A stretch of 64,000 nucleotides of DNA, from assembly GCA_013152535.1 (NCBI GenBank), contig JAADGE010000082.1:1-64000 (forward strand). Reading direction: 5' to 3'. The position numbers were made by a program, and so were the translations under genes. The notes under the pieces are model-generated. The model had not been told where the DNA came from. It searched no databases and saw only the letters and a list, made by a program, of their open reading frames with translations. The stretch comes from Chlorobiota bacterium (GTDB taxonomy: Bacteria > Bacteroidota > Bacteroidia > Bacteroidales > JAADGE01). Shown piece after piece: positions 9,074 through 20,216 of the stretch. Every line of letters begins with the position of its first letter. Positions within the stretch are counted from its first letter, which is position 1.

Positions 9074-11044
9074 ATGAAGAAATATCATATTTTAACAATA
9101 AATCCCGGTTCAACTTCTACTAAAATAGGTGTTTTTCAAAATGAAGAATGCTTGTTTGAAATCAATGTAAGCCACAGTCCCAAACAATTAGAACAGTATT
9201 CTGATATTTGGGAACAATATTCATTTCGTAAAGAAGAAATTATCACAGCAATTAATAAAAATGGTTATAATTTAAATAAATTAGATGCTGTTGTAGGCAG
9301 AGGCGGTTTAATAAAACCGATACCCAGCGGGACTTATTATGTTGATCAGGAGATGATAAATGATGCACGTGACGGTTACCAGGGGCAGCATGCTTCAAAT
9401 TTGGGTTGTGTTATTGCATACAGTATCGGTTGGGAAAACTCAATTCCGTCATTTATTGTTGATCCGCCGGCTGTAGATGATTTAGAACCGATTGCTCGTA
9501 TTTCGGGACATAAAGATTTTGAAAGATCGTCGTTACTGCATGCTTTAAATATTTTTGCAACGGCACGTGAACATGCTCAAGTTTTAAAGAAAAAAATAAC
9601 TGATTTAAATTTGATAGTGGCACATCTCGGCGGAGGAATTACGGTTGCTGCATTAAAAAAAGGAAAAGCCGTAAACGTAAATCACGGTTTGTATGAAGGT
9701 CCTTTTTCTCCCGAAAGAAGCGGAAGTTTGCCTCTTTTCAAATATCTTGATAAATCTCTCTCCGGAAAATATTCCGAAACTGAATTAAAGAAAATGGTTG
9801 TAGGAAAAGGCGGACTTGTATCATATTTTAATACTAATGATGCTCGAAATGTTGAACGGTTTGTTGCGGCGGGTTCTGAAAAATACGAATTGGTTTATAG
9901 AGCAATGGCATATCAAATTGCAGAAGAAATCGGAAAAAGAGCTACTAATTTAAAAGGTGAAATTGACGGAATAATTATCACAGGCGGTTTAGCTCATTCT
10001 AAATTATTGACAGGTTGGATTCGAGAACGTATAGATTTTCTGGGAAAAGTAAATATATATCCCGGCGAAGCTGAACTTAAGGCATTGGCACAAGGTGCTT
10101 TGCGTGTACTTAAAGGAGAGGAAAGGGCAAAGCATTATATGCGAAAAGTTAAAAAAATCGGTATTCTTTATTGGGATAATTTAGAAATTTTTATAAAATC
10201 AATTAACATTATTGAGGCTCGTTTAAAAAAGGCGGGATATATTTTCAGAAAAGAAAGAGATAATAATTTGCAAATTACTTATGTGAACTGTAAACGCGAT
10301 GAAGAAAATTTAATGCATGCTGTTGATAAATTAAAAAAAGATAAAGTTGATTTAATATTTTCTATCGGTTCTCCTGTTAGTATGCGAATAGGGCAATATC
10401 TTACAGATGAGGAAATTCCGGTTGTTTTTACCGGGATATACAGTTCTGCAATAATTGCCGATTTTGAAAAGAATCATAACAATAATTATTATGCCGTTTG
10501 TTATGCTCCCGAAATTAAAGATCAATTTGAGCATACTGTTTTAATATCGGATAAGAATCTGAAAAAAATAGGAGTTTTATATCGCCGAGGAGAGCTGCAG
10601 GCAGAAATTCAATACGATGATATTATAGAATATACCGAAAAAGAAGGAATAGAGGTTATAAGTTATGAAATTCAGGAAACTGAAGATTTTGAAAAAGCAA
10701 AGAATTATTTCACACGTAAAAACGTGAAATGGGTATATATAGGCACAAGCACTGTTATCGCTTCATCCGGATATGACTTATTAAGTACTATTACTGATAA
10801 TTTTCCTACGGTTTGTATGCTTGAAGATACTGTAATCAGAGGTGGTTTGGAAGGATATGTTATTCCCTGGGATGCAGTAACCGAAACTTCCGTTAAGATT
10901 GCTCTTGATTTATTGGACGGTAATCCGGTTACTTCCAGAGTTTTTAAACCTGATTCGGTAAAATTATTCATTAACAGAAAAACTGCTGAGAAATTAAAAA
11001 TTCTTGGTAATTTTGAAAAGTTTGAACAAGCAGAATTTGTTTAA
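9074..11044 (+). CDS. Butyrate kinase fused to C-terminal ABC_sub_bind (TrpX-like) domain
   Basis: N-terminal ~355 aa: ILTINPGSTSTKIGVF, VGRGGLIKPIPSGTY, HLGGGITVAA, GIIITGGLAHS. C-terminal ~300 aa from codon 356: KIGILYW..., LIFSIGSPVSMRIGQYLTDEEIPVVFTG, KKIGVLYRRGE, LDLLDGNPVTSRVF. No stop between them. Confidence 0.88.
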   Translation: MKKYHILTINPGSTSTKIGVFQNEECLFEINVSHSPKQLEQYSDIWEQYSFRKEEIITAINKNGYNLNKLDAVVGRGGLIKPIPSGTYYVDQEMINDARDGYQGQHASNLGCVIAYSIGWENSIPSFIVDPPAVDDLEPIARISGHKDFERSSLLHALNIFATAREHAQVLKKKITDLNLIVAHLGGGITVAALKKGKAVNVNHGLYEGPFSPERSGSLPLFKYLDKSLSGKYSETELKKMVVGKGGLVSYFNTNDARNVERFVAAGSEKYELVYRAMAYQIAEEIGKRATNLKGEIDGIIITGGLAHSKLLTGWIRERIDFLGKVNIYPGEAELKALAQGALRVLKGEERAKHYMRKVKKIGILYWDNLEIFIKSINIIEARLKKAGYIFRKERDNNLQITYVNCKRDEENLMHAVDKLKKDKVDLIFSIGSPVSMRIGQYLTDEEIPVVFTGIYSSAIIADFEKNHNNNYYAVCYAPEIKDQFEHTVLISDKNLKKIGVLYRRGELQAEIQYDDIIEYTEKEGIEVISYEIQETEDFEKAKNYFTRKNVKWVYIGTSTVIASSGYDLLSTITDNFPTVCMLEDTVIRGGLEGYVIPWDAVTETSVKIALDLLDGNPVTSRVFKPDSVKLFINRKTAEKLKILGNFEKFEQAEFV

Positions 11045-17036: not shown

Positions 17037-17781
17037 GATTCGTAAAATTTTAAACCATCAATTTTAATAAGAAAAAAATGAAACTCGAAATAAAAAATAC
17101 CGAAAATTTTATAAGTAAATCAGAATTGTCAGAATATCAAAAAAAAGCGGAAATTGCAAATGAAACTTTACATAACAAAGACGGCTTAGGCAATGATTTT
17201 CTCGGTTGGGTAAATTTACCTTTTGAAGCATCCGAAGAAATAATTTCCGATATTGAAGAAACGGCAAAAAAACTGCAAAACAAAATTGATATTATGGTAA
17301 CTGTCGGTATCGGCGGTTCCTACCTCGGTGCAAAAGCCGTTATAGAGGCACTTTCGGATAATTTTTCCGATTTAAAAGATACGGGTAAAATAAAAATGCT
17401 TTTTGCCGGTAATAATTTAAGCGAAGATTATTTATACGAGCTTACCGAACTTCTCAGAGATAAATCGTGGGCAATTACGATTATTTCAAAATCGGGAACA
17501 ACAACCGAACCTGCCGTTGCTTTCAGAATATTGAAAGCCGATTTGGAAAAAAAATACGGAAAAGAAGAAGCAAATCAGCGTATTATTGCCGTAACCGATA
17601 AGGAAAAAGGTGCCTTAAAACAACTTGCCGATAAAGAAGTATATAAAACATACGTTATTCCGGACGATGTCGGCGGAAGATTTTCGGTGTTAACTCCGGT
17701 CGGCTTGTTGCCGATTGCAGTTGCAGGATTTAATATACGAGAATTATTAAAAGGTGCTGTTAACGCAGCCAAAGAAACAAA

Positions 17782-17801
17782 TTCCGATTCTTTCCGATTC
17801 T
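17782..17801. repeat. Perfect 10-bp tandem duplication (ttccgattct)x2 in pgi
   Basis: Read directly: aa|ttccgattct|ttccgattct|tttggaaat. Confidence 0.97.
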
Positions 17802-18267
17802 TTTGGAAATTCGGCAGAAGAATATGCTGCTGTCCGCAACATTTTGTATGACACCGGTTTTACTAATGAAATATTGGTAAATTATAACCCCAAACTCACT
17901 TTTTTTGCCGAATGGTGGAAACAACTTTACGGTGAAAGCGAAGGAAAAGACGGAAAAGGTATTTTTCCCGCAAGCGTAAGCTTTACAACCGATTTGCATT
18001 CTATGGGACAATATATACAAGACGGAAAACGAAATTTATTTGAAACCGTTATTTCTGTCGAAAAAATAAAAAAAATAAAAAATAATCTTATCCTTCCGGA
18101 AAATGATAGTAATTTGGATAAATTAAATTATTTGGCAGGCAAACATATTGAAGAAATAAACAAAAGTGCAGAACAAGGAACTTTAAAAGCCCATCTTGAC
18201 GGCGGAGTTCCGAATATCAGAATTTCAATTCCTCAAATCAACGAGTATTATATCGGTGAATTAATTT

Positions 18268-18281
18268 ATTTTTTATTTTTT
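18268..18281. repeat. Perfect 7-bp tandem duplication (atttttt)x2 in pgi
   Basis: Read directly: ttaattt|atttttt|atttttt|cgagaaagcc. Confidence 0.93.
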
Positions 18282-18446
18282 CGAGAAAGCCTGCGGTATC
18301 AGCGGTTATATTCTCGGCGTAAATCCTTTTGACCAACCCGGTGTGGAAGCCTATAAACGCAATATGTTTCAGATTCTCGGAAAACCCGGATATTAGAGAA
18401 ATATCATTTTTCAAAAACTAAATTTATATAATAATGATTACTTGTT

Positions 18447-18454
18447 TATATTTG
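18447..18454 (+). promoter_or_regulatory. Candidate -7 element (TATATTTG) for lysS
   Basis: Matches TAnnTTTG, 30 nt upstream of the native lysS ATG at 18484. Confidence 0.45.
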
Positions 18455-18483
18455 CAAGTTATTATTTTTTTACATAAAAAACT

Positions 18484-20216
18484 ATGAGTAATATTGAATT
18501 AAGCGAACAAGAACAACTGAGAAGAAAATCTCTTGAAGAAATTAAAAAGTTAGGTATAAATCCTTATCCTGCATCAAAATATGAGATAACTGCATGATAA
18601 CTGCATACAGTAAAGATATTAAAAATGCTTATAATCCGGAAGAAAATAACTTTCAAAATATAAGTATTGCAGGCAGAATAATGACTCGGCGGATAATGGG
18701 TAAAGCATCTTTTATTGAACTGCAGGATTCAAAAGGAAAAATACAGGTTTATTTCAATCGAGATGAAATTTGTTCCGGAGAAGATAAAACATTATATAAT
18801 ATTGTTTTTAAAAAGCTACTTGATTTGGGTGATATAATCGGCATAAAAGGCGATGTCTTCATTACACAAACAGGTGAAATCACCGTAAAAGCAAAAGAAT
18901 ACACAATTCTTACAAAATCTGTTCGTCCTTTGCCCGTAGTTAAGGAAAAAGACGGGAAAACCTACGATGCATTTTCTGACCCGGAACAAAGATACCGAAT
19001 GCGTTATTTGGATTTAATTGTAAATCCGCAGGTTAAAGAAACCTTTATTAAACGCACTAAGTTAACAAATTCAATGCGTGAGTATCTTAACGGAAAAGGT
19101 TATTTGGAAGTGGAAACACCCATTTTACAACCGATATACGGCGGTGCAGCTGCACGACCTTTTAAAACTCATCATAATGTGCTTGATCAAACCCTGTATT
19201 TAAGAATTGCCGATGAATTATACCTTAAAAAATTAATTGTAGGCGGATTTGACGGTGTTTATGAATTTGCAAAAGATTTCCGTAATGAAGGAATGGACAG
19301 ATTCCATAATCCGGAATTTACGCAAATGGAACTTTATGTTGCTTACAAGGATTATTTTTGGATGATGAATACTGTTGAAGAAATGGTAGAAAAAATTGCT
19401 TTAGATATTCACGGAACTACAAAAGTACAAGTCGGAGAAAATACAATTGACTTCAAAAGACCTTGGAAACGTTACACAATGTTTCAAGCCATTGAGCATT
19501 TTACCGGCATTGATATTTCCGAAATGAATGAAGAAGAATTGCGTACAACAGCTGAAAAACTCGGTATTGAAACAGATGCAACGATGGGAACAGGAAAATT
19601 AGTTGATGAAATTTTCGGCGAAAAATGCGAAGCTCAACTCATTCAACCCACGTTTATTACCGATTATCCGGTAGAAATGTCGCCGCTTGCAAAAAAACAC
19701 CGCAGTGTTGAGGGTTTGGTCGAACGCTTTGAAGCTGTTTGTAACGGAAAAGAAATTTGTAATGCTTATTCGGAACTTAACGACCCGATTGACCAAAGAG
19801 AACGCTTTGAAGAACAACTTTTACTTGCAAAAAGAGGCGATGACGAAGCTATGATGCTCGATGAAGATTTTCTGAAAGCTATTGATTACGGTATGCCGCC
19901 GACATCAGGTCTTGGTATCGGAATTGATCGTTTGGCAATGATTATGACAAATTCAAACTCAATTCAAGATGTTTTATTTTTTCCGCAAATGCGTCCCGAA
20001 AAGAAAGAACAAATTGATTCAACGGATAAATATATTGAAAAAGGAATTTCGGAAGAATGGGTCTTTCTTTTGCAAAAGCTTGGTTTTAAGACTGTTAACA
20101 GTCTAAAAGAAGCAAAACCGGGAAAATTATTTAATGATTTATGCGGATTAAATAAAAAAGGAAAACTCGGATTACAAAATCCGTCTGCGGATGATGTAAA
20201 AAAATGGTGTGAATAA
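18484..20216 (+). CDS. lysS: Lysyl-tRNA synthetase; native start at 18484, frame broken by an 11-bp duplication, ORF reopens at ATG 18594
   Basis: 18484-18597 encodes [37 protein letters not shown], a typical LysRS N terminus; 18594-20216 encodes the remainder (class II motifs, [31 protein letters not shown]). Confidence 0.92.
18585..18606. repeat. Perfect 11-bp tandem duplication (gataactgcat)x2 in lysS 5' region
   Basis: Read directly: atga|gataactgcat|gataactgcat|acag. Confidence 0.97.

Follow-up and report, generated by a model that had tools for sequence, protein, structure and literature searches.

Short tandem duplications that break pgi, lysS and other genes of a Bacteroidales-like draft genome are probably assembly errors

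The DNA considered here (the window, 64 kb) is the first part of contig C28 (73,082 bp) in G000, a Bacteroidales-like draft genome of 3.3 Mb in 92 contigs that is estimated to be 98% complete and 0.3% contaminated, and whose nearest named relatives are metagenome bins of Bacteroidales type. Within this window, two consecutive core genes are interrupted by short tandem duplications, which raises the question of whether the breaks belong to the living organism or to the draft sequence. The features concerned are as follows.

17078..18393, + strand: pgi (glucose-6-phosphate isomerase), split over three frames, with a Pfam PGI match in the first piece
17782..17803, + strand: 10-bp exact tandem duplication, TTCCGATTCT, 2.2 copies; first frame break in pgi
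18061..18082, + strand: 9-bp tandem repeat, AAAAAATAA, 2.4 copies, in frame; private, with several relatives 9 bp shorter here
18265..18281, + strand: 7-bp exact tandem duplication, ATTTTTT (TTTATTT in another register), 2.4 copies; second frame break in pgi
18484..20216, + strand: lysS (class II lysyl-tRNA synthetase), its frame interrupted 37 codons in, with a TIGR00499 match above cut-off and Pfam matches
18585..18606, + strand: 11-bp exact tandem duplication, GATAACTGCAT, 2 copies; frame break in lysS

The original prediction described three exact duplications of 10, 7, and 11 bp without spacers, each coinciding with a frame break in pgi or lysS, and the sequence and its alignment to relatives bear this out: two of the breaks lie in pgi and one in lysS, and relatives carry one copy at each site. 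At the 7-bp and 11-bp sites, the gaps in the relatives are exactly 7 and 11 bp long; the 10-bp site lies in a length-variable stretch, with net 10-bp gaps in the relatives L009 and L033. The in-frame 9-bp repeat constitutes a fourth tandem duplication, placed between the frame-breaking ones. No other perfect two-copy repeat of period 10 or 11 occurs within the 64 kb, where 0.4 and 0.2, respectively, would be expected by chance (third-order Markov control). Repeats of period 7, on the other hand, occur at chance level (10 observed versus 9.75 expected), and the 7-bp duplication is therefore notable solely for breaking a frame.

The draft genome holds no second copy of either gene: the pgi locus gives the sole PGI match, and lysS the sole above-cut-off TIGR00499 match. 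The three frames of pgi together match one 429-aa protein of a relative, and the gene bears the marks of ordinary constraint, with a dN/dS of approximately 0.11–0.13, similar to values between relatives; at 159 sites that do not otherwise vary it has three changes of its own, again similar to relatives. A decaying pseudogene, on which selection would be relaxed, was accordingly rejected for pgi. Several core genes are disrupted together, including two that are single-copy, and yet purifying selection on pgi is normal; the breaks must be either very recent or absent from the organism. In lysS, the 11-bp duplication creates the motif ATGATAA, so that a new in-frame ATG at 18594 overlaps the stop codon of the 37-aa upstream piece; judged from the sequence, a lysyl-tRNA synthetase (LysRS) shortened by 37 residues could still be produced from this ATG, and the break may perhaps be survivable by that route. 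The arrangement (window 18590–18600) is as found at termination-reinitiation sites. Of 295 genomes belonging to the order, none supplied a close conspecific copy of the region where lysS begins. Over the last 429 codons of the main lysS piece (18594–20213), 13 sites that are invariant in four relatives carry a residue unique to G000; the corresponding count is 0–2 for each of three relatives and 17 for the fourth.

To see these breaks in a wider context, 1.41 Mb of the 3.3-Mb draft genome was scanned for exact tandem duplications with a unit of at least 5 bp that is not a multiple of three and that, once reduced to a single copy, connect two reading frames; mid-gene breaks were distinguished from natural gene boundaries by eye from the junctions, without blinding. 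This yielded 12 exact, frame-breaking mid-gene duplications of 5–14 bp, or approximately 9 detected per Mb sampled. The 12 include the three sites of the window, although the 7-bp pgi site fell under the length threshold of the scan and was counted through the alignments. The other nine are listed by contig and position.

C10:417: 14-bp duplication, in a gene that we take to be HdrA-like from our own reading of its FAD and 4Fe-4S domains
C19:332: 8-bp duplication
C19:9296: 8-bp duplication, in a C39-peptidase ABC transporter gene
C25, around 10540–10900: 14-bp and 7-bp duplications, 355 bp apart, in one DUF5686 gene
C3:59061: 10-bp duplication, in a Peptidase_C26 gene
C15:25104: 10-bp duplication, in an M1-peptidase gene
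C15:34086: 10-bp duplication, in a SLOG-like gene
C15:88430: 5-bp duplication, in aroC, first noticed via its homolog

Gene identities at most of these sites are backed by Pfam matches to the pieces, and the insertions in the C25 gene and aroC are missing from relatives. Homolog-based detection of split genes, applied with sampled relatives at low coverage, bore out the breaks in pgi, lysS, aroC, and the C25 gene. Two of the 12 duplications (C10:417 and C19:332) lie no more than 420 bp from a contig start, and none of the frame-breaking duplications has a unit longer than 14 bp. The last 354 kb sampled from G000 contained no frame-breaking duplication, and the breaks are therefore patchy. Most 5-bp and several 7–8 bp scan candidates were rejected as natural gene boundaries, and the split at locus L116 was likewise read as one.

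The identical scan found zero mid-gene cases in 0.98 Mb from three genomes of the same genus and zero in 0.77 Mb from 80 related loci, giving an overall contrast, on a list sorted by eye, of 12 in 1.41 Mb of G000 versus 0 in 1.76 Mb of controls. For the sites outside the window (9 versus 0), the probability at equal rates is approximately 0.007 when the three genomes serve as the comparison and 0.0005 when all controls do; these statistics are approximate, as they rest on the eye-sorted, unblinded list. Total tandem-repeat density discriminates poorly, with G009 equal to G000 in repeats of 10–14 bp. Pairs of breaks less than 1 kb apart number 4 against 0.09 expected, a figure inflated by the choice of the window for its cluster, and outside the window 1 against 0.05. 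The set is not special to this spot: the pattern has no counterpart elsewhere in the 64 kb but does recur in the rest of the genome, including the second close pair on C25.

On this evidence we think it likely that the duplications are technical artefacts of a draft assembled from short reads rather than biology, and that the organism itself probably carries pgi and lysS intact, with one copy at each site. In thinly covered patches, two pieces sharing an overlap of 5–14 bases would have been abutted end to end without being merged, so that the shared bases would be printed twice; at the level of reads, a chimeric or end-repaired library molecule entering the consensus at very low coverage would give an identical picture. 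Of this account, the duplications, their absence from relatives, their recurrence in G000, and their clustering are observed, whereas the low coverage and the joining step are inferred. As would be expected of such an error, an exact short duplicate stands at each site and is missing in relatives, and the class recurs in the G000 assembly and is missing, on the eye-sorted list, in comparable genomes. Recurrence in G000 only, clustering, the two sites near contig starts, and the lack of any unit above 14 bp together fit short overlaps that were abutted and left unmerged. The original prediction had allowed for an assembly artefact confined to this stretch; the artefact is the best-supported reading, although it is not confined, the same class recurring in G000. 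It had also leaned away from an artefact on the grounds that long-read errors look different, an argument that loses its footing here, as G000 has the look of a de Bruijn assembly built from short reads. This is indicated by the contig ends C4/C33, C13/C27, and C7/C29, which overlap exactly over 91, 91, and 75 bp, respectively; these pairs could probably be joined.

A comparable error has been described in metagenome assemblies made with IDBA-UD and CLC, where local errors at scaffold joins leave overlapping flanks unmerged and a duplicate behind (Chen et al., 2020; PMC7111523). The likeness lies in a short overlapping sequence that is kept twice at a join; the difference, which counts against assembly error, is that Ns part the copies there, whereas the copies abut here, and the first 1.05 Mb sampled from G000 contains no N at all. 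In the sections considered here, the study of Cooley and Wright (2024; PMC11017572) describes spurious pseudogenes, functional genes that look broken owing to assembler, platform, or low coverage, without giving short tandem duplications separate mention. Junction microhomology slightly exceeds the chance level (17 bases versus 9.9, P = 0.05, borderline), and this too weighs against an assembly error to some extent, being also expected from slippage. We know of no assembler step that demonstrably yields exactly such abutting duplicates.

The main rival to assembly error is real, recent mutation in the sampled population, by slippage or by staggered breaks being filled in and re-ligated, the lineage being a mutator or damaged and making LysRS by re-initiation at the new ATG. 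Duplications of this kind in living genomes are likewise exact, head-to-tail, and without spacer, and the borderline microhomology and the overlap of the lysS ATG with the preceding stop (ATGA) speak for it as well. Against it, several core genes were struck together, including aroC and the two without a second copy, which is not expected of slippage or fill-in repair in a living genome; moreover, selection on pgi is not relaxed, no such duplications were seen in the relatives scanned, and no unit in a broken gene exceeds 14 bp. We therefore regard real mutation as unlikely, though worth keeping in mind. A local mutational signature, as had been suggested for this stretch, found no support. 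The stronger proposition that the duplications are real because the lineage gains clustered exact tandem duplications of 5–14 bp by end-filling repair, and tolerates them through re-initiation (the ATGA overlap of lysS) or ribosome bypass, seems to us distinctly improbable.

The remaining explanations fare worse still. Precise excision of an insertion sequence can leave both target copies abutting, and footprints of lost elements would accordingly be exact and spacer-free, but the target-duplication length, constant for any one element, varies here among 5, 7, 8, 10, 11, and 14 bp, and no remnant bases separate the copies, such that this origin has very little to recommend it. A reversible on/off switch (phase variation), another of the earlier suggestions, could in principle restore each frame by dropping one repeat copy; nothing supports it, however, as each site has two copies only, the units differ in length and sequence, relatives are single-copy (a phase-variable locus would have many copies of a single unit, shared by relatives), and the targets are housekeeping genes rather than surface or contingency genes, and we give it almost no credence. 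Equally implausible is programmed ribosome bypass (hopping), by which the genes would be expressed despite the breaks: bypassing elements have matched take-off and landing codons, which a direct repeat would offer, but the repeats are not conserved in relatives, the sites share no common sequence, and single-strand DNA folding at the three sites is no better than that of shuffles (z = -0.8, -1.4, and -0.7).

Taken as assembly errors, these duplications serve mainly as a quality warning, in that a genome rated 98% complete and 0.3% contaminated may still hold frame-breaking duplications in core genes, which gene callers would label as pseudogenes or fragments. Candidates can be found without a reference, by scanning for exact duplications of 5–15 bp that link two frames once one copy is removed; they must then be sorted from natural gene boundaries. 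A break of another kind was seen in G000 on contig C17 (locus L129, 500–670), where an ankyrin-type reading frame close to the contig start shifts twice within approximately 130 bp, seemingly by single bases rather than by tandem duplication, and which may represent another low-quality patch or a pseudogene.
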